Below are positions 26,397 to 35,508 of a stretch of 36,457 nucleotides of DNA, piece after piece. The notes beneath the pieces were generated by a model. That model had not been told where the DNA came from, made no database searches, and saw only the letters and a list, made by a program, of their open reading frames with translations. Numbering within the stretch: position 1 is the first letter of the stretch; each line of letters begins with the position of its first letter. The stretch covers positions 1 to 36,457 of the forward strand of contig JAADGR010000378.1 in the NCBI GenBank assembly GCA_013152225.1, written 5' to 3'. Made by a program: the position numbers and the translations under genes. This DNA comes from Calditrichota bacterium. Its GTDB lineage: Bacteria > Zhuqueibacterota > Zhuqueibacteria > Residuimicrobiales > Krinioviventaceae.

Positions 26397-26861
26397 ATGA
26401 TTTCAGTAGAAGTTGAAACTGAAAAAGCAATTTTTTCACCGGTACTGGGTGAGACAAGTTATCATGAGGATGAAGTGATCCTTTTTCCTGAAGGTCTTAT
26501 TGGTTTTGAGAACAACAGGAAATTTATCATTAAAACAAAAGATGGCTTTGAACCTTTTCATTGGCTGCTTTGTCTCGACGAGCCGGATCTGCTGTTCCCG
26601 GTTATTGATCCCTTTCTGATTATGAAAGATTATCGTCCCAGGCCGTCGGGCAGCGAGTTGCAAAGCGTTGGCATCGAAAATAGCCGGGATGCCCGGTTTT
26701 TAGCTGTGGTAACCGTTGGCCAAACTGTTGATCAGGTCTCTGTTAATCTGAGGGGACCGATTGTCATTAACAAATCGAGGAATTTGGGAAAACAAATAAT
26801 TTTAATGGAGAGCCAGTATCTCGTAAAACACCCTATCAAGGCAGGACGCTACAACAATTAA
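26397..26861 (+). CDS. fliW: Flagellar assembly factor FliW (CsrA antagonist)
   Basis: FliW binds CsrA allosterically and relieves CsrA repression of flagellin translation, while flagellin competes for FliW. The 154-residue product has the family blocks ILFPEGLIGFENNRKFIIKT, EPFHWLLCLDEPDLLFPVID, VVTVGQTVDQVSVNLRGPIV and INKSRNLGKQIILME. CGGAG at 26381-26385 is 11 nt before ATG 26397. csrA follows within 25 nt, the standard fliW-csrA pair. Confidence 0.95.
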   Translation: MISVEVETEKAIFSPVLGETSYHEDEVILFPEGLIGFENNRKFIIKTKDGFEPFHWLLCLDEPDLLFPVIDPFLIMKDYRPRPSGSELQSVGIENSRDARFLAVVTVGQTVDQVSVNLRGPIVINKSRNLGKQIILMESQYLVKHPIKAGRYNN

Positions 26862-26885
26862 CACAAAATGCCAGGGAAGGCAAAA

Positions 26886-27188
26886 ATGCTTGTTTTGACA
26901 AGAAAACCGGGGGAGACTATTGCAATCGGCAAGGATATACGTATTTCGATTGTTGAGATTGATGGACGCAGCGTTCGAGTCGGAATCGAGGCTCCAAAGT
27001 CTGTGACCATTTACAGGGGAGAAATTTACGAAAAAGTTCAGGAACAAAACCGCCAGGCCGCTCGCCAGGGGCTTAACACCGATATTAAATTTTTAGCCGG
27101 TAAACTCGCAAAAAATGTGAGCGGATTTGCGGAAAACCCACCTTTTATTCAAAACGACAATAAAGAGGAGCGATTTGATGAGCAGTAA
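26886..27188 (+). CDS. csrA: Carbon storage regulator CsrA with long C-terminal extension
   Basis: CsrA is a dimeric RNA-binding translational repressor recognising GGA in hairpin loops. From ATG 26886 (AGGGAAGG at 26873-26880 as ribosome site) the product starts MLVLTRKPGETIAIGKDIRI, followed by GIEAPKSVTIYRGEIYEKVQ, the conserved CsrA core with the RNA-binding arginine region. The core ends near residue 60; about 40 further residues follow, against 61 in enteric CsrA and about 74 in Bacillus. C-terminal extensions are typical of FliW-controlled CsrA, and this one is unusually long. The 3' end overlaps the next gene by 11 nt. Confidence 0.95.
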   Translation: MLVLTRKPGETIAIGKDIRISIVEIDGRSVRVGIEAPKSVTIYRGEIYEKVQEQNRQAARQGLNTDIKFLAGKLAKNVSGFAENPPFIQNDNKEERFDEQ

Positions 27189-28272
27189 CGTGGGAAGTGA
27201 TGAAAAAAAAACAAAAGCCCAAAAGAATGCTGTAAATGGGAATGATCCGCTGCAGCAGGTCGATGAATTGATTATGTCCGGCAGGGAGGATGAAGCCTTG
27301 GCGATATTGAAAAACCAGGTCGATGCGGGAACGGAACCGGTTGCAAAAGCCTGTTGCCAAATTGGTGTCGCCTATAGCAGAAAGAATGATTTTGTGCAAG
27401 CTGAAAAATACTTTGTCAGAGCCGTGAAAGCGGATCCAAAGTTGAGTGAAGGATTTTATAATCTGGGCTGGATTTATCAAAGAAAAGGTGATTATGACAG
27501 TGCGCTCGCATTTTACAAAGAAAGTCTCGTGGAGAGAGGGGATGACGGCGAAGTTTATGAAGGAATGGGTGATTGCTGTTTGGCCCTGGAAAAATACGAC
27601 GACGCGCTCGCTTTTTTCGACGCTGCGTTGCAGCTTTGTCCGGATTCCATTCACGCCGCGTTAAATTTGGCGAAAATTTATTTAATGAAAAATGCTTCCG
27701 ACAAGGCCCAGGAAGTCCTTAATCTGGCTCTCATCTCAAACCCTAATGAAACTGAAATTCACTTTTCCCTCGGGGCGATTCAAAAGGAGATGGGGAATTA
27801 CGAGCATGCGCTGGCGCATTTTCACAAAGTGGTTATGTATGATGAAACGAACACCTTTGCATTCAACGAACTGGGTGAGTGCTGCCAGGCTCTGGGGCTG
27901 GCAAAACAGGCCGAACCTTTTTTCGCCCAAGCTGCAAAGCTGGATGAGACGAACCTGACGCCAAAGCTGAACCTTGGTGAACTCTATTATAAAAAACATC
28001 GCTATGACCAGACTGCTGTCATTTTGCAGCAATGGCTGGATGACTCCATGGATCAGATTGAACTTGAAAACGGAGATATTGATCACCACGGTGAACTGGT
28101 ACCAACTTTAAATATGCTGGCAGATGCGTACAACAAGTCGAAACAATTGAGTCGGGCAAAGGAAGTTTGGCAGCTTTCCCTGGAAATTGATGAAAACCAG
28201 GATGAAATAAAAAAGCTGATGAATCAATCCGATGTGCGCAGTTATGATAAAGTCAGCCTGAGTTTGGACTAG
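27178..28272 (+). CDS. TPR repeat protein coupled to csrA
   Basis: A 364-residue soluble protein made almost entirely of tetratricopeptide repeats, roughly eight units from about residue 27 to 340. Examples are EGFYNLGWIYQRKGDYDSAL, GEVYEGMGDCCLALEKYDDA and EIHFSLGAIQKEMGNYEHAL. No catalytic domain or signal peptide is seen. ATG 27178 follows GAGGAG (27165-27170) at 7 nt and lies inside the 3' end of csrA, so translation is probably coupled. TPR proteins often act as scaffolds in glycan and flagellar systems; here the role is unknown, and its neighbours suggest flagellin modification. Confidence 0.85.
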   Translation: MSSNVGSDEKKTKAQKNAVNGNDPLQQVDELIMSGREDEALAILKNQVDAGTEPVAKACCQIGVAYSRKNDFVQAEKYFVRAVKADPKLSEGFYNLGWIYQRKGDYDSALAFYKESLVERGDDGEVYEGMGDCCLALEKYDDALAFFDAALQLCPDSIHAALNLAKIYLMKNASDKAQEVLNLALISNPNETEIHFSLGAIQKEMGNYEHALAHFHKVVMYDETNTFAFNELGECCQALGLAKQAEPFFAQAAKLDETNLTPKLNLGELYYKKHRYDQTAVILQQWLDDSMDQIELENGDIDHHGELVPTLNMLADAYNKSKQLSRAKEVWQLSLEIDENQDEIKKLMNQSDVRSYDKVSLSLD

Positions 28273-28291: not shown

Positions 28292-31200
28292 GTGAATAAA
28301 ATTGAGGGTGTTTTGAAAAAAGAATTGAAGAATTTGTCGTCTTTTCAAAAACTCGTAGAAGAAGCAAAATCCCTGAGAGAAGAAAATCAATTCATTTCTT
28401 CTCTATCAAAGTATGAACAAGCTCTCGAACTAAATCCGCAAGGTACACCTGCCCTATATGGAAAAGCGGTAATTTGTTCTGTACTGGGAAGGCTGGATGA
28501 AGCGATTCGGATGTTCGAAAAGGTGGCCGCTTTGGAGGGAAATGATGCTTCAATATACAATAATCTCGGCGTCCTTTGTTTCAAACTCGATCGACTGGAT
28601 GAAGCCAAAGAACATTTTACCAAAGCGTTGCAATTGGACGGGAATTATCAGGAAGCGCTCTATGGCCTGGGAAAAGTTTTGTTGAAACAGGGACAAAAAG
28701 AGGAAGCGATTGCTGCGCTGGAAAAATGTAAACATTTTAAATCCGCACAAGGAGAACTGGCGAGACTCTTGCGCAGAGACACAGAACCGGTGCGGCAAAA
28801 ACCGCCGGAAAGCATTTTGATCATTATGGAGCAGGGCATCGGCAACATGGTGATGATGACGCCCGCGCTGCGCGCCATTCGCAACCATCTGCCCAAAGTG
28901 CATCTGGCAGTATTGGGAACTGAACCCGCAGTGCAGGTCATCCACAGTTGGCAGGTTGTGGATGAGGTATTCACCACGCTGCCGCAAAGTAACTTTGATT
29001 TGATGATGTTTTCGATCTGGTCACAAAATATCAAAGCGCATTGGGGAGAACATCTGAAAACTTTATCGCAGGAAATCTATTCCGCTCCTGTCGCAAATTT
29101 CGATGTACACGAAAGCGATCTGCATTTGCAAATGGCGCGGCACATTGGCTATCAAGGCCCGGTCCCTGCGCCGTTTTGTATGTCTGCTGAAACAACCTTT
29201 GATTTACCGCAAAAAGGCCGCGTCATCGGCATTGCGGATACGGCATTGGATGTAAAAGGTTGGGAAAGAAAACGCTGGCCGTACTATCCACAGTTGGCAG
29301 AAAAGTTGATTGAAAATGGTCATGCGGTTGTTTTGATTGGCGGAAAATCCGAGGCGGAAAAGTTTCATCCCGAAGCCTGGCCGCGCCAGGTGCAGAGTTT
29401 CATGGGGGCACTCAGCCTGCAGGAAACGGCTTCTTTAATTCAAAAATGTGATGTTGTGGTTACCAATGACAGCGGACCGGCTCATGTCTCGGCGGCACTG
29501 GGCACTCCGACGCTGGTTCTGTTCGGTCCGACCAAAATGTCCAAAAACATTCCTCTTGGCGAAAAAGTGAAAGCCGTTAGCCTGGATTTGGATTGCAGCC
29601 CCTGTCAGTACAGCGAGCGCTGGGAGGCGTGCAATGACTGGCGCTGCATGAACGAGTTAACGGTGGATCGTGTTCTGCCATTTCTTTTCGAAAAAGACGA
29701 GTTTAAATCAACGCGTATCAGGATCAAAACACGAGGGAATGAAAAGCTTTTGCTGGTTGGGAAAAACTATGCGGATTGCCAAATTATAGAAAAAGACCGC
29801 CGTCTGTTTGTTACAAAAGACGGTATAGAAGAGTCGCTTACGGTTCATCTTGTCGGTGCCGGAAAAGCAAATTATCCCTGGGGTATGGAAAATGAAATTT
29901 CCCGTGCTCTGAAGGAAATGGGAATTCAAGTTATTGAAACCGACTATCGTCTTGAACGGGAAAATTTCTCTGCCCTTTTTTCCCGGCCGGCGCATTTCAT
30001 GCTCGTTTGTAAAGGGTCCGGCATTTCACCTGACCTCATCAGAAAATATCCCGGCCGCACGCTTTTGTGGTACCAGGATGATGTTTTTACTACCGCGCAT
30101 GCTCCCCGGGATTTGGCTTATAACGGCAGCGCTTTTGATACGGTCTATTCTTTTGACAAGTCGGCTGTGGACGAATATAAGAAATTCGGCATAAAAGATG
30201 TGCGTTGGCTTCCCCTTGCGGCCAGCCCGGCTGTCCATCGGAAAATGGATGTGCCAAAAAAATATGATGTTTCCTTTGTCGGCAATATTCATCCCAACCG
30301 CAAACCTTTTCTTGAGAGATTACAGAAAAAATTTAATATACACATCGAACGCGCTTTCATGGATGACATGGTGAGAATATTCAATCAGTCCGGGATTGTG
30401 CTTAACCTGGGAATTGGTCCCACAGGAATTCAGCAAAGAGTTTTCGAGGTGCTGAGTTGTGGGTCTTTCCTTTTGACAAACGAGATTCCGGAAGCAGATC
30501 GTTTGTTTGAGAACCACAGGCACCTTGTTTATTTCAATGAAGAAAATATTGAAGACCTGATTTCCTATTATCTCGAACATGAACAAGAACGCGAAAATAT
30601 TGCTTATGAAGGTTATCTGGAAGCGCACGAAAAACATACTTTTCATCATCGGATGCACGTCTTGTTAGGACATGTTTTCTCCGACAACCTCCCGGAAAAG
30701 ACAAGGTCTTCAAAGCGCGGTGATGCAGTGCAGCGCTCCCGTCAGGAGAGGCCCAAAAAACGATTGCTTGTTTTTTGGCACGGGATCGGTGATAATGTGA
30801 TGGCAACCCCGGCGCTGCGTGCATTTCGGGAAAAGCATCCCCATGATTTTATCGGCTTTATGTATCTTAAAAGAATTCACAAAGACGGACTCATGAAGGG
30901 CAATCCGTACATTGACGAACTGTACACATGCAGTGATGCGTGGGACGATTATCCGAACTATGAAACCGGCGTTACCGCTGTGATAGAAGAAGCGAAGACT
31001 GTTGCCAGGCGTGAGGGGTATGATGAGATCATTCCCATTACCATGCGCGCCTGTTCTCTGGAGCGCCATCGTATTGATCGGATTGCCTATGAACTCGATG
31101 TCGAGCCGGAGAGTTATGACACGGAACTTTATGTTTCCAATGCCGACCGCAAGCACGCTGAGGCGATTTTCCGCCAGTGGGGAATTAAAGAAAATGATTT

Positions 31201-32689
31201 TGTCGTTGCCATCCACCGCCGCGGAGCGAATGTAAACAAATTCTGGGATGTTGAACAGGCTCAGAGATTTGTCGAGATGATGAAAAAAAACGTCGATGCC
31301 AGGTTTATTGCATTTGAAACGCACACTGATTTGGATCGGGAAACCGGGCCGCAATTCCGCGGGGACGGGATTTTCAGTACAGCGGAAGTGGACAATGTAA
31401 CGTTAAGGCTTTCGGCGGCTTTGATCGATCGCTGCAACCTTTTCGTGGGAATCGATTCGGGTCCCATGTGGCTTGCCACAACCACCAGTACACCGGTCGT
31501 CGCTCTTTTCACAATGACGTGGATGCACCAGAGCGCACCGCTGAATACAAATAGTTTACTTGTTGCTTCCCAAAATGCCTGGGAAATGTGCAGCAATGAA
31601 TTTAAGGACAAAAATCAAGACAGGATTGTTTATGATGCAACAGGAGGGACGACTGTTCGTGCCGAAACCGTGTTGTCTGCTGTTAACCGTATTTTCCCGC
31701 AGAACGGGAATTTGGCGCCTTTGCAAAAAGTGGCGAAAACGCGTCTCCAACTGCCGCGCGCATTTCATTCGCAACGAGCATACTGGGGGGCCTTTCTTAC
31801 CCTGGCGTGTACGGCAAATTGTTCTTACTGCATTCAAAAGATGGACTATGCTTCATTCCAAATTGCCAGGCGGACGAATATCCTTTCCGGCAGACAGTGG
31901 GTTCATTTTTTAAATGCCATTGAACATAAACCGAACCAACCTATCGCTTTGATCGGAGGTGAGCCGTCGCTACACCATGATTTCATCAAGATACTGAATG
32001 ATTTGGAAGGCTATGTGGTCACCGTTACCACAAATCTGATTTCCAAGCATTTTAACAATGTCGATGAATTTGTGCAAAAGTTGCATACAAAATCTTCGGT
32101 TCGTTTTAACACGTCATTCCATCCGGGTTTCATCTCTGCGGAGGACTATATCTCACGCGTGCAGCGGATGCGGGAACTGGGACTGTGGGTCGATCAGGTT
32201 GCCATGGTCGATCATCCGAACAGCAATTATCAAAAATACAAAGAGATTTTTGCTCGTCATGGCCTGGCTTTGCGCCCACAGACTTTTTTGGGCTACTGGA
32301 AGGGAAAACTTTATCCGACACCGGATGATCCCTATGCAACGAACGATCCGAGAGAACACGGCATTTATGATTTACGCCTTTATAAGGAAGGATTTTCCGC
32401 CCGACAAAAATCATCCATTTATTGCCAGACAAGAAGATTTCTAATCGCTCCGGACGGACTGGTGTACAATTGTCATTATCATCTTTACAGTAGAACAAAC
32501 CCGGTCGGCGACTTGCTAAAGAGTGAACTGAATCTGAAGGAAGACTATTACTATTGTGAGGATTATGGTTTTTGCAATCCATGTGATTTTCCCAATGTCC
32601 GCTTTAGGCGTATTAATGAAACAGTATTTTCTGAAATGGAAATGGAAAAAGCATTGGATTCGCGAAATGTTTTACAAAATATCAAATGA
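28292..32689 (+). CDS. Giant multi-module protein: TPR, GT9-like, CgeB-type GT, GT9-like, radical SAM
   Basis: A single 1465-residue open frame with five modules. Residues about 15-165 are TPR repeats (LGVLCFKLDRLDEAKEHFTK). About 174-462 resemble an ADP-heptose-type GT9 (QGIGNMVMMTPALRA; NDSGPAHVSAALGTPTLVLF). About 515-790 resemble CgeB-type glycosyltransferases (LLWYQDDVF, VSFVGNIHPNRKPFLERL, VFEVLSCGSFLLTNEIPEAD). About 823-1130 are a second GT9-like module (FWHGIGDNVMATPALRAF; GIDSGPMWLATTTSTPVVAL). About 1160-1435 are radical SAM: CTANCSYC (Cys1173, 1177, 1180), GGEPSLH at 1222, and SPASM-like cysteines 1378, 1394, 1422, 1428, 1431. Start choice is uncertain (GTG 28292 without a good ribosome site; TTG 28313 or 28325 possible). 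Probably builds or modifies a flagellar or surface glycan; substrate unknown. Confidence 0.85.
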   Translation: MNKIEGVLKKELKNLSSFQKLVEEAKSLREENQFISSLSKYEQALELNPQGTPALYGKAVICSVLGRLDEAIRMFEKVAALEGNDASIYNNLGVLCFKLDRLDEAKEHFTKALQLDGNYQEALYGLGKVLLKQGQKEEAIAALEKCKHFKSAQGELARLLRRDTEPVRQKPPESILIIMEQGIGNMVMMTPALRAIRNHLPKVHLAVLGTEPAVQVIHSWQVVDEVFTTLPQSNFDLMMFSIWSQNIKAHWGEHLKTLSQEIYSAPVANFDVHESDLHLQMARHIGYQGPVPAPFCMSAETTFDLPQKGRVIGIADTALDVKGWERKRWPYYPQLAEKLIENGHAVVLIGGKSEAEKFHPEAWPRQVQSFMGALSLQETASLIQKCDVVVTNDSGPAHVSAALGTPTLVLFGPTKMSKNIPLGEKVKAVSLDLDCSPCQYSERWEACNDWRCMNELTVDRVLPFLFEKDEFKSTRIRIKTRGNEKLLLVGKNYADCQIIEKDRRLFVTKDGIEESLTVHLVGAGKANYPWGMENEISRALKEMGIQVIETDYRLERENFSALFSRPAHFMLVCKGSGISPDLIRKYPGRTLLWYQDDVFTTAHAPRDLAYNGSAFDTVYSFDKSAVDEYKKFGIKDVRWLPLAASPAVHRKMDVPKKYDVSFVGNIHPNRKPFLERLQKKFNIHIERAFMDDMVRIFNQSGIVLNLGIGPTGIQQRVFEVLSCGSFLLTNEIPEADRLFENHRHLVYFNEENIEDLISYYLEHEQERENIAYEGYLEAHEKHTFHHRMHVLLGHVFSDNLPEKTRSSKRGDAVQRSRQERPKKRLLVFWHGIGDNVMATPALRAFREKHPHDFIGFMYLKRIHKDGLMKGNPYIDELYTCSDAWDDYPNYETGVTAVIEEAKTVARREGYDEIIPITMRACSLERHRIDRIAYELDVEPESYDTELYVSNADRKHAEAIFRQWGIKENDFVVAIHRRGANVNKFWDVEQAQRFVEMMKKNVDARFIAFETHTDLDRETGPQFRGDGIFSTAEVDNVTLRLSAALIDRCNLFVGIDSGPMWLATTTSTPVVALFTMTWMHQSAPLNTNSLLVASQNAWEMCSNEFKDKNQDRIVYDATGGTTVRAETVLSAVNRIFPQNGNLAPLQKVAKTRLQLPRAFHSQRAYWGAFLTLACTANCSYCIQKMDYASFQIARRTNILSGRQWVHFLNAIEHKPNQPIALIGGEPSLHHDFIKILNDLEGYVVTVTTNLISKHFNNVDEFVQKLHTKSSVRFNTSFHPGFISAEDYISRVQRMRELGLWVDQVAMVDHPNSNYQKYKEIFARHGLALRPQTFLGYWKGKLYPTPDDPYATNDPREHGIYDLRLYKEGFSARQKSSIYCQTRRFLIAPDGLVYNCHYHLYSRTNPVGDLLKSELNLKEDYYYCEDYGFCNPCDFPNVRFRRINETVFSEMEMEKALDSRNVLQNIK

Positions 32690-32710: not shown

Positions 32711-32902
32711 ATGGCTGCTGAGCCTTACGATTTGAAAAAGCCGCCCTCCGCGGGTGAGAATATAGAGTGGAAAAACAGAATATATGTAACGCATAAACAA
32801 ATTACGCAGCGAAAATGCGTTGCATATTTTGATGTGTCGGGTGAATGCGAAAGATCTTATCCGCGGAGGGGTTTGCCTGATTTGATATGCACTGTCGTTT
32901 GA
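32711..32902 (+). CDS. Possible small ORF, 63 residues, overlapping a palindromic element
   Basis: An open frame from ATG 32711 encodes 63 residues with two Cys, including RIYVTHKQITQRKCVAYFDV and YPRRGLPDL. It was not recognised. No ribosome site precedes the ATG, and most of its length coincides with nested inverted repeats, so it may be chance coding across a structured or mobile element. It is listed because it is + strand, fills the gap between two genes and has a non-random-looking composition. Confidence 0.25.
   Translation: MAAEPYDLKKPPSAGENIEWKNRIYVTHKQITQRKCVAYFDVSGECERSYPRRGLPDLICTVV
32744..32870 (+). other. Nested palindromic (structured) element upstream of the methyltransferase
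   Basis: The outer arms CCCTCCGCGG (32744-32753) and CCGCGGAGGG (32861-32870) are perfect 10-bp inverted repeats. Nested inside, ATATGTAACGCAT (32782-32794) pairs with ATGCGTTGCATAT (32815-32827) over 13 positions with one G-U, around a 20-nt loop. A third, alternative pairing ACGCA/TGCGT lies in that loop. GGGTGA occurs in both flanks between outer and inner stems. This could be a cis-regulatory RNA, a small RNA or a miniature inverted-repeat element. No known riboswitch core was recognised. Confidence 0.6.
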
Positions 32903-32931
32903 AAAACTATTATGTGTACAGGAGAAATAAG

Positions 32932-33711
32932 ATGGCTATTAAACTGATAACAAGTTCTGAGGATATTACAAAAGTCAAAGATAAAAGAGAGTACGCTCTC
33001 ATAACATTTGATGACCGGCTGACGCTTAATGAAAGCCGAAAGGATACGGCCAATATCGTGTTCAATCCGGAGGCCGGCTATTCACCAAGTTTTGGGGCGC
33101 TTTCGAGAAAAATGTGGGAGACAAATCAGGGACAAAAGTTCGCTCCTGTGGCAAGGGATTCAGATTTGAGCAATTATTTATACCAGCCGCGCTTTCGTAT
33201 CTTATTCGATCATCTGCTCTCCCGGCCATTAGACGCAACGCGCTTTCTGGATGTCGGTTGTTGTGACGCAAATGTAGCAAAAAAAGCTATCGAATTGGGT
33301 GTTCAGGATGTAACGGCGATCGATCTGCCGGAAATTATTCAGGAGATTAAACCTGTGGATGGCCTCAAACTTTTGGCCGCTAATTTAAATGAAGACTTTG
33401 TTGATGGAGAATTCGATGTCATCTATGCCGGTGAAGTGATAGAACATTTGTACAATGACTTTGCGTTTTTGCAACGCTGTTATGATCATACTGCAGAGAA
33501 TGGAGTCCTCATTATCACCACACCTCAGGACTCACCGGTGAAAAGATGGTATGAAGAAGGTACTCACCTTCGCTGCTATCCGGATCATACTCTTGCCGGA
33601 CTTGTTGCGTGTACCGGGTACGATGTGGAACGTTTTAATGTCCAACTCAACTTTACGAAAAATGGTTTACGGACTGTTGCCATTGTTTTTGCGCGAAAAG
33701 CCTCAATGTAG
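32932..33711 (+). CDS. SAM-dependent class I methyltransferase
   Basis: A 259-residue soluble protein with a Rossmann methyltransferase fold in the middle. Motif I is RFLDVGCCDANVAKKAIELG (about residue 102), followed by the acidic end of strand 2 at TAIDLPE. The post-I/motif II segment is FDVIYAGEVIEHLYNDFAFL, and motif III lies in GVLIITTPQDSPV. This pattern fits Methyltransf_11/23-type small-molecule or sugar methyltransferases. Residues 1-85 are not recognised. ATG 32932 follows GGAG (32921-32924) at 7 nt; the open frame extends to 32887 without a ribosome site. Context suggests methylation of a flagellar or surface glycan; the substrate is inferred, not shown. Confidence 0.85.
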   Translation: MAIKLITSSEDITKVKDKREYALITFDDRLTLNESRKDTANIVFNPEAGYSPSFGALSRKMWETNQGQKFAPVARDSDLSNYLYQPRFRILFDHLLSRPLDATRFLDVGCCDANVAKKAIELGVQDVTAIDLPEIIQEIKPVDGLKLLAANLNEDFVDGEFDVIYAGEVIEHLYNDFAFLQRCYDHTAENGVLIITTPQDSPVKRWYEEGTHLRCYPDHTLAGLVACTGYDVERFNVQLNFTKNGLRTVAIVFARKASM

Positions 33712-33741: not shown

Positions 33742-35508
33742 ATGAGCAGAAATAAAATCACCTGGGAAAAGAAAGCGAAAAAAGAATTAAATAATGCTAG
33801 CCTGACACTTTGCATGATTGTTAAGAACGAGGAAGAACATATCGCGCGTTGTTTGCAAAGTGTAAAGGATGCGGTGGATGACATTGTTGTTGTTGATACC
33901 GGTTCTACCGATCGAACGGTAGAGATTTGCAAAAGCTTTGGTGCTAAAGTTTACCACCATCCGTGGCAGGACAGTTTCAGCAAAGCTCGCAATCAGGCGC
34001 TTAAATATGTTAAAACAGAGTGGGCGCTGCAACTGGATGCGGACGAGGAGTTAGACCCAGCGGATATTCCATTGTTACGCCAAGCACTTTATGAGAAGCA
34101 ATTTAACAGTATCTGCGTGACAATTTTTAATGATTTACCGGAAGGCATTATTTCTAAATTTTATTACCGGCGGTTGTACCGGACAAAGATGGCGCATTAT
34201 GAAGGGCGGGTGCATAACCAAATTGTCGTTCCGGGAGCAGTGGGGATGCGAGACATTCGAATATATCATCATGGTTATAATCTTCCTCCTGAAAAAATGG
34301 CTGCCAAATATGAACGAACAGAGAAGCTTTTGCTCGGGCAAATCGAGGAAGAACCTGCCAATATTTTTTATCGGTTTAATCTTGTCAGAGTTTATCGTAA
34401 CAAACAAGAATATGATCGTGCAATTTCTGAGGGCTTGACGGCGTTGCAAATGCCAAATGTGCGTTCGCGTATTGGCTATTACCTCATGATCGTCAATGAT
34501 GTCTGCCACAGCATGCTCCTCGCACAACGTGCTCATAAAGTTTTTCCCCTTTGTTCGGAAGCGCTTAAAGTTGATCCGCTAAATATGGACTTGTTATTCG
34601 CTATGGCCGGCGCGTATGTGTCCATTGGCGCGTATAAGAACGCGATTCTCTATTATCAAAAATGGCTAAAAGCAAAACAAAAAACAGACGGCAAACCAAT
34701 CGATCTTGCGATGAGCGTCGATACCTATTCGCTGGATGCTGTTGTTTTGGAAAATATCGGCAAGTGTTACAAGTATATCGGACAATATGATCCGGCTATT
34801 GAGAATCTCGAAAAAGCAATTGCCGCCAACCCCGGTCGTCTCTCTCCTTATAAAGCTCTGGCTCTCTGCTATATTGAACAGCATGATTTGGCCAAGGCCA
34901 CGCACGTATTGGAGAGGTCGGTTTCGAAAAATATTGCCGATAGTTTTGTTTTCTACAAACTGGGTGTTTTGCTCCGGGAACTTGGCCATTTCGATCAGGC
35001 GCAAAAATATATGCAGCGATCGTTGCAGCTTGATGAGGACGCACCTGATGTCTGGAATGCGAACGGCCAGTTGCTCCTTGTGCGAGGCAAAACCGTTGAG
35101 GCTCTGCAAAATTTTAATCGATGTTTGCAAATAAATCCAAATCACTTGGGAGCTAAATTAAACAGATCTCACGCGCTTTTACTTCTTCAAAAAAATCAGG
35201 AAGCGCAAAAAGAGTTGATTGCCATCCTTTCATCCGAGCCGCAAGATTATGGAATTTTCAGCGAGGCAGGAGAGCTTTGCTGTACGCACCACTTGTTCGT
35301 TCCGGCAATTTCTTTTTATGAAAAATATCTGCAACAAAAGCCTAATGATGTGAAGGCATTGCATAATCTGGCATCGTGCTACGCGCAAACGGGGAATTTC
35401 GACTCGGCACGGATTGGTTATAGTGCTGTTCTAAACATTAATCCCTCTTATCAGCCAACAGTACAAAGTCTTGAATACTTGCAAAAAATATCAGCTTTGG
35501 TGGAGTGA
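33742..35508 (+). CDS. Family 2 glycosyltransferase with C-terminal TPR repeats
   Basis: A 588-residue fusion. The first roughly 200 residues are a GT-A family 2 glycosyltransferase: LCMIVKNEEEHIARCLQSVK, DIVVVDTGSTDRTVEICKSF, and the metal-binding LDADEEL. The rest (about 215-585) is TPR repeats (NIGKCYKYIGQYDPAIENLE, KLGVLLRELGHFDQAQKYMQ). This layout recalls SunS-like peptide glycosyltransferases and protein O-glycosyltransferases, where the TPR part holds the acceptor protein. AGGGAAG at about 33733-33739 precedes ATG 33742 closely. The next gene begins within its stop codon (TGATG). Likely acceptor is flagellin, by context only. Confidence 0.88.
   Translation: MSRNKITWEKKAKKELNNASLTLCMIVKNEEEHIARCLQSVKDAVDDIVVVDTGSTDRTVEICKSFGAKVYHHPWQDSFSKARNQALKYVKTEWALQLDADEELDPADIPLLRQALYEKQFNSICVTIFNDLPEGIISKFYYRRLYRTKMAHYEGRVHNQIVVPGAVGMRDIRIYHHGYNLPPEKMAAKYERTEKLLLGQIEEEPANIFYRFNLVRVYRNKQEYDRAISEGLTALQMPNVRSRIGYYLMIVNDVCHSMLLAQRAHKVFPLCSEALKVDPLNMDLLFAMAGAYVSIGAYKNAILYYQKWLKAKQKTDGKPIDLAMSVDTYSLDAVVLENIGKCYKYIGQYDPAIENLEKAIAANPGRLSPYKALALCYIEQHDLAKATHVLERSVSKNIADSFVFYKLGVLLRELGHFDQAQKYMQRSLQLDEDAPDVWNANGQLLLVRGKTVEALQNFNRCLQINPNHLGAKLNRSHALLLLQKNQEAQKELIAILSSEPQDYGIFSEAGELCCTHHLFVPAISFYEKYLQQKPNDVKALHNLASCYAQTGNFDSARIGYSAVLNINPSYQPTVQSLEYLQKISALVE

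Follow-up and report, generated by a model that had tools for sequence, protein, structure and literature searches.

The stretch of DNA analysed here, referred to as the window, comprises the 36,457 nucleotides of contig JAADGR010000378.1 from the Calditrichota bacterium assembly GCA_013152225.1. Downstream of a long run of flagellar genes, a single frame on the forward strand (28292..32689) is open from its GTG start to its stop over 1465 codons and encodes a tetratricopeptide repeat (TPR) region, a GT9 glycosyltransferase module (GT9a), a CgeB-type glycosyltransferase (GT), a second GT9 module (GT9b) and a radical S-adenosylmethionine (SAM) module, in that order, as located with Pfam and NCBIfam profiles. 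The uninterrupted frame and the order of its five modules had been described in an earlier sequence-only reading, and both are confirmed; TPR, GT9 and PF13524 profiles matched, as did PF04055 when the radical SAM module was scanned by itself. The genome is that of an uncultured bacterium whose nearest named relatives are metagenome-assembled genomes of candidate division KSB1 and Calditrichaeota.

A putative flagellin glycosylation island

The sequence upstream of the fused gene reads as a flagellar operon comprising the end of fliK, flgE, motA, motB, fliL, fliM, fliN, fliOPQR, flhB, flhA, flhF, flhG and fliA, continued by flgF, flgG, flgA, flgH, flgI, flgJ, flgK and flgL, and then by fliW (26397..26861, +; PF02623 match), csrA (26868..27188, +; with BLAST matches to small open reading frames after fliW in many relatives) and a stand-alone TPR gene (27178..28272, +). 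The stop of the latter at 28272 leaves a gap of 19 nt to the fused gene by coordinates, rather than the 12 nt first reported. Downstream lie genes for a SAM-dependent methyltransferase (32887..33711, +; PF13489/PF08241), a glycosyltransferase of TPR-GT2 type (33742..35508, +; relatives have homologues lying between csrA and fliC), and a second such enzyme cut by the contig end (35505..36457, +), both TPR-GT2 assignments coming from reading of the sequence. The gene set is continued on contig C481 of the same genome, where the end of a TPR-GT2 gene is followed by fliC (412 aa), fliS, fliD and a FlaG-like gene. In the sister genome G001, the methyltransferase, two TPR-GT2 genes, fliC and a FliS-like gene are found on one contig.

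The island order is fliW-csrA-TPR-[fusion-methyltransferase]-TPR-GT2-TPR-GT2-fliC-fliS-fliD, with the fused gene flanked by flagellar structural genes on one side and flagellin on the other. Its place after the fliW-csrA-TPR unit and before the methyltransferase and two TPR-GT genes is as originally read, and the island reaches fliC-fliS-fliD in its own genome and fliC in G001. Judged by gene order, the fused gene sits in a predicted flagellin glycosylation island.

The fliW-csrA-TPR unit itself (26397-28272 in the window; L145, L147, L159 and L163 elsewhere), with a TPR protein of about 370 aa, is a recurrent feature of several families in the phylum. The product of this TPR gene is a possible partner of flagellin or of FliW/CsrA.

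Integrity of the fused gene

The draft genome of the window is fragmented into 533 contigs, a circumstance in which separate genes might have been fused by an assembly or read error. In G001, however, contig C662 keeps residues 1-1166 (TPR, GT9a, CgeB and GT9b, reaching into the radical SAM module) as one frame, and contig C284 carries residues 1257-1465. The fused proteins of the two genomes are 97% identical overall and 99% identical over the latter part; the pieces span all module junctions, and only a 90-residue stretch within the radical SAM module falls into the contig gap. All five modules are under purifying selection, since the ratio of non-synonymous to synonymous substitution rates (dN/dS) between the window and G001 is 0.10-0.23 throughout (TPR 0.23, GT9a 0.17, CgeB 0.10, GT9b 0.16, radical SAM 0.098); with only 78 synonymous and 43 non-synonymous changes in total between two genomes, the differences among modules are not to be read closely. 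Related fused proteins are also present in many genomes. Fusion by error, which would have undone the sequence-only reading, is extremely improbable on this evidence, an assembly chimera being ruled out by the G001 frame across every junction together with low dN/dS.

The sister record, in which a gene 97% identical to that of the window occurs on JAACEJ010000196.1 (L033), is labelled Actinomycetota; it groups here with the KSB1 and Calditrichaeota genomes and is probably mislabelled or misbinned.

TPR and glycosyltransferase modules

The TPR region (residues ~16-163; 28337..28780, +) is identified by Pfam TPR families, with matches at residues ~20-150, and by helices in the AlphaFold model. 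GT9a (residues ~172-468; 28805..29695, +) is supported by Pfam, alignment and fold match. In the fused protein, the GT9 profile PF01075 scores 139.5 bits against a cut-off of 22 over two matched stretches, the best at 310-442 (E 1.5e-40). GT9b (residues ~818-1135; 30743..31696, +) was located by NCBIfam TIGR02201 at 935-1132 and by alignment, and is also supported by a match to the GT9 structure 3tov in the PDB (E 8.7e-11). Both sites exceed the PF01075 cut-off in the genome search, which places both in the GT9 family. Between them, the CgeB-type module (residues ~512-797; 29825..30682, +), also recovered by alignment, shows DUF3880 (PF12996) at 615-667 with 34.7 bits and then PF13524 at 681-792 with 88.9 bits (E 4e-25), each above a Pfam cut-off near 25. 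It thus resembles other CgeB-type glycosyltransferases in carrying both domains, and differs from them in its fixed order behind a GT9 module.

An AlphaFold model of residues 1-808 (mean predicted local distance difference test, pLDDT, 73; predicted template modelling score, pTM, 0.43) displays TPR helices followed by two alpha/beta glycosyltransferase units, in agreement with the module calls for this half. Foldseek searches with this model matched WaaF, WaaC and 3tov, and retrieved longer similarity to the TPR-GT proteins OGT and SPINDLY, with the capsule multi-enzyme 8qoy as top fold match; since whole-chain template modelling scores (TM-scores) were low, these matches indicate domain types and not orthology. 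The likeness to OGT and SPINDLY, a TPR region followed by a GT-B fold, accordingly concerns fold types and domain order only, and that to 8qoy the presence of several glycan enzymes per chain. For residues 805-1465 no usable model was obtained (pLDDT 38) because too few relatives (two sequences) were available, so that the GT9b and radical SAM calls rest on sequence profiles.

The heptosyltransferase WaaC requires Asp13, Lys192 and Asp261 (PMC5713226). At the position of Asp13, the catalytic base in the N-terminal GxGD motif, GT9b carries Asp834 and GT9a carries Asn185; the equivalents of Lys192 and Asp261 are retained in both modules (Lys327 and Asp393 in GT9a, Lys983 and Asp1055 in GT9b). 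The Asn of GT9a is present in all six aligned copies of the conserved core described below (window, L021, L022, L023, L024, L088). Ordinary stand-alone GT9 proteins with a readable motif in these genomes all have Asp, the exception being one in G054, a close relative of the core, which reads GIGN. In GT9b, Trp1060 stands where aligned GT9 enzymes carry the His of the DSGPxH motif. Both modules are thus like WaaC and WaaF in their GT9 profile matches (PF01075, and TIGR02201 for GT9b), and GT9a also in its fold; they are unlike them in these substitutions and in being embedded in a larger chain.

Because Asn replaces the catalytic Asp, we file GT9a as GT9-like rather than among the active heptosyltransferases; the module may be inactive, employ another base, or serve to bind donor or acceptor. 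A partly non-catalytic chain, in which GT9a and/or GT9b are inactive and a CgeB-type transferase and a radical SAM enzyme share a TPR scaffold, seems possible but rather doubtful. The change from Asp to Asn in every core GT9a copy checked and that from His to Trp in GT9b speak for it; against it, GT9a retains Lys and the second Asp and is strongly conserved between families, Asp834, Lys983 and Asp1055 are intact in GT9b, and both modules are under purifying selection, although such constraint would equally suit a structural or donor-binding role. This possibility is compatible with the explanation that we favour below, which it narrows. With its catalytic Asp consistently replaced, GT9a provides a clean case in which to ask whether GT9 folds can act as non-catalytic partners.

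Genome G035 contains two core paralogues in one island (L022:6556-10293 and L022:13787-17368) with complementary motif losses: one has GIGN and retains the second Asp motif, the other has GIGD and has lost the second motif (VAGGLAH).

The radical SAM module

The C-terminal module (residues ~1150-1450; 31739..32641, +), delimited by alignment and Pfam, contains the cluster motif CxxxCxxC (Cys1173, 1177 and 1180; 31808..31831, +). PF04055 matches at 1170-1272 with 26.4 bits in the whole protein, below the cut-off of 29.5, and passes narrowly (29.9) when the module is scanned alone; together with the cluster motif this places it in the radical SAM superfamily. Five auxiliary cysteines (Cys1378, 1394, 1422, 1428 and 1431; 32423..32584, +), arranged as CX10GX4C and CX5CX2C, are invariant in 7/7 family members and conform to the pattern CX9-15GX4C plus further Cys. 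We take the CX10GX4C motif to fit the SPASM/Twitch signature; the Pfam SPASM profile PF13186 had no match in the module or in the four homologues scanned. By alignment, the module is firmly assigned to the auxiliary-cysteine radical SAM family. It shares CxxxCxxC and the CX9-15GX4C auxiliary motif with the SPASM/Twitch enzymes BtrN, NeoN and HygY, and is unlike known members in its missing Pfam SPASM match, its five auxiliary cysteines and its fusion to glycosyltransferases. The module also resembles STM4011-type radical SAM proteins, with weak near-full-length similarity to NF038073.

Among the 82 genomes of the phylum, no relatives of the module were found at useful similarity except in G001. 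The phylum of deltaproteobacterium L042 yielded just weak generic radical SAM matches, and a sequence search of the PDB with the module nothing useful. Other relatives are separate proteins found only in Planctomycetota (six homologues, 29-38% identity), of which L072 adjoins flagellin genes and L067 and L071 lie within surface-sugar loci.

SPASM/Twitch enzymes that act on sugars, as dehydrogenases or epimerases, include BtrN, NeoN and HygY. Because BtrN and NeoN are among such enzymes, epimerisation or dehydrogenation is our best guess for the reaction of the module. NeoN indeed epimerises a sugar within the assembled neomycin oligosaccharide (PMC10991966).

A different substrate can be envisaged, namely that the radical SAM module alters the flagellin polypeptide itself through side-chain chemistry while the GT modules glycosylate the same chain. 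Auxiliary cysteines in a SPASM/Twitch pattern are frequent among peptide-modifying radical SAM enzymes, peptide maturases occur among the weak profile matches of the module, and the TPRs of the same chain would hold the acceptor. MoaA and viperin-type enzymes are, however, equally strong among these weak matches, and the surface-sugar loci that contain homologues L067 and L071 showed no flagellin in the vicinity. We regard modification of the polypeptide as unlikely.

Several further observations concern the planctomycetal homologues. The highest local identity to the module (36-38%) is found in L068:7706-8986 and L070:1266-2597, which have a TPR-like C-terminal extension. Near three of the six homologues lies a related SPASM-type radical SAM gene (L067:10417-11589, L071:257-1360 and L072:1557-2609; mutual identity 27-35%), with no good counterpart in the genome of the window. 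In planctomycetal flagellin or surface-glycan islands (L040, L041, L071, L182), transketolase (as split halves in L040 and L041), B12-binding or SPASM radical SAM proteins and NAD epimerases co-recur. The set of transketolase, radical SAM protein and NAD epimerase suggests an unusual sugar pathway.

A conserved core with exchangeable tails

The GT9a-CgeB pair (residues ~171-803) is found at 46-54% identity in other KSB1/Calditrichota genomes. In a profile search of the 82 genomes of the phylum, this core was complete, or truncated only where a contig ends, in eight (G000, G001, G012, G025, G035, G038, G071, G074), and its GT9 part was found at a contig end in a ninth (G040); it follows fliW in 8/9 carrier genomes. 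The core is continued in different ways: by a second CgeB-type GT in G025, G035 and G038, by a region that reads as GT4-like in G012, and by GT9b with the radical SAM module in the window. By these comparisons, GT9a-CgeB is a constant core, with attached modules varying among lineages.

FliW was found in 37/82 genomes of the phylum, and giant enzymes of other composition follow fliW elsewhere: methyltransferase with several GT2, CgeB and TPR modules in G042, four GT2 with CgeB and TPR in G041, and TPR-GT4-methyltransferase in G002. In G045, fliW-csrA is followed by a sulfotransferase-like-GT2-methyltransferase-GT2 chain (L154:2-2485, cut by the contig end). The slot between fliW and fliC often holds interchangeable giant glycan enzymes in this phylum, a pattern of which the fused gene is part. 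In G022 and G027, of another family, the order is fliW-csrA-TPR-TPR-GT2-TPR-GT2-fliC with nothing else between. Since these genomes keep the unit without the fusion and the methyltransferase, both are accessory cargo of a conserved flagellin glycosylation unit.

Outside this group, the core profile matched only the CgeB half in our genome collection, at 54-57% identity, in multi-transferase chains of Candidatus Brocadia (1814 aa), Kuenenia hertensis (2076 aa) and deltaproteobacterium L042 (1585 aa). In L042 the gene lies upstream of csrA-flgL-fliW-TPR-GT2-fliC. In Brocadia it lies about 16 kb from fliC on one contig of 198,889 bases that also carries fliS and fliD; three TPR-GT2 genes, a second CgeB-like gene and sugar genes were detected in between by a scan with two short peptide patterns, which undercounts for that reason. 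A CgeB sub-family with the motifs NxPWGME and WYQDDVF occurs in flagellin islands of several phyla.

The sequence-only reading knew of no described protein with this module order. Because long fused glycan enzymes are common in the fliW slot and present in anammox and deltaproteobacterial islands, the fused protein is less isolated than first thought, and it is singular in its tail of GT9 and radical SAM modules. Two features are surprising: the radical SAM tail, and the Asp-to-Asn substitution conserved in GT9a. More generally, the slot after fliW/csrA shows how glycan pathways are assembled as a constant core is joined to interchangeable modules by fusion, and prediction of glycans from genes thereby becomes testable in uncultured phyla.

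These distributions also bear on whether the fused protein might serve a surface glycan other than that of flagellin (lipopolysaccharide (LPS) core, capsule or S-layer), its flagellar position being incidental. GT9 enzymes are typically LPS heptosyltransferases, and the top fold match, 8qoy, is a multi-enzyme for a capsule polymer. The core nevertheless adjoins fliW in nearly all carriers and its CgeB half lies near fliC in other phyla; where relatives lack the core, the same position is occupied by sugar genes or by giant glycan enzymes of another kind, and the TPR domain is in keeping with an acceptor that is a protein. A non-flagellin target is quite improbable in our estimation, and a role as general LPS heptosyltransferase is ranked low. 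TibC provides an example of a GT9 heptosyltransferase that acts on protein.

Proposed role in flagellin modification

With moderate confidence, we favour a single-chain multi-enzyme, guided by its TPRs, that assembles a glycan on flagellin and whose radical SAM module finishes one of the sugars. The modules, their conserved motifs, the purifying selection and the island position are shown by the analysis; from these we infer flagellin as the target, the module activities, the order of reactions, the identities of the sugars and the radical SAM reaction. The N-terminal TPRs would hold cytoplasmic flagellin before export, a proposal modelled on the flagellin glycosyltransferase Maf-1, whose TPR gives acceptor specificity according to work cited in PMC13317340. 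The GT9a-CgeB core might then start or extend an O-linked glycan on flagellin; CgeB is probably the transferase active here, whereas GT9a, with its Asn substitution, may be altered or serve chiefly in binding. GT9b would lengthen the chain by an activated sugar, heptose-like or other. The C-terminal module would then carry out a radical-based change, as a best guess epimerisation or dehydrogenation, on one of the sugars in the glycan as it grows. The adjoining methyltransferase and two TPR-GT2 enzymes may complete the modification. As parts of one chain, these modules would let a flagellin molecule stay on a single enzyme over several steps.

The multi-enzyme is tied to flagellin because the island runs into fliC-fliS-fliD and the core follows fliW in almost every carrier. 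Also in favour of this reading are the CgeB half in giant enzymes near fliC in other phyla, the low dN/dS of every module, the resemblance of the N-terminal half to WaaF/WaaC and to the protein O-glycosyltransferases OGT and SPINDLY, the radical SAM homologues beside flagellin genes (L072) or in surface-sugar loci (L067, L071), and the precedent of NeoN. To this extent the earlier designation as an assembly-line enzyme is upheld; it also implies that all modules are active, which the missing catalytic Asp of GT9a does not support. Several further points count against the multi-enzyme that we favour. Gene neighbourhood alone does not prove flagellin as the target, and the window is without sugar-nucleotide synthesis genes that would name the donor sugars. 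The activity of either GT9 module is uncertain, GT9a being without the family base and GT9b without the usual His. The TPR and GT fold matches are in part superfold similarity. Finally, the core of G012 lies on a 12.9-kb contig on which no flagellar gene was seen, and a different enzyme follows fliW in that genome.

It is more tentatively, and with rather low confidence, that we consider a flagellin-bound multi-enzyme whose glycosyltransferases and radical SAM module would act in cis, radical chemistry editing a sugar already on the protein, with the conserved GT9 unit without its canonical base as a binding or alternative-chemistry domain. If a radical enzyme does act on a protein-bound glycan, this would represent a new route to unusual sugars after their attachment.

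Flagellin glycosylation islands with GT2/GT4 enzymes have been described in Geobacillus (PMC5109656), and islands are also known from Clostridium (PMC13317340). No report of a flagellin GT-radical SAM fusion, or of a radical SAM part in flagellin glycosylation, was found in the open-access literature. The finding thus connects the glycosylation of flagellin with the sugar chemistry of radical SAM enzymes, two fields with no described overlap in the literature searched. As in the Maf, Geobacillus and Clostridium islands, GT genes lie here inside a flagellar locus beside flagellin, and TPR-guided acceptor recognition, known for Maf-1, is proposed for the fused protein. Unlike those islands, the window lacks nonulosonic acid genes, and instead of separate enzymes it encodes several transferases and a radical SAM module in one chain.

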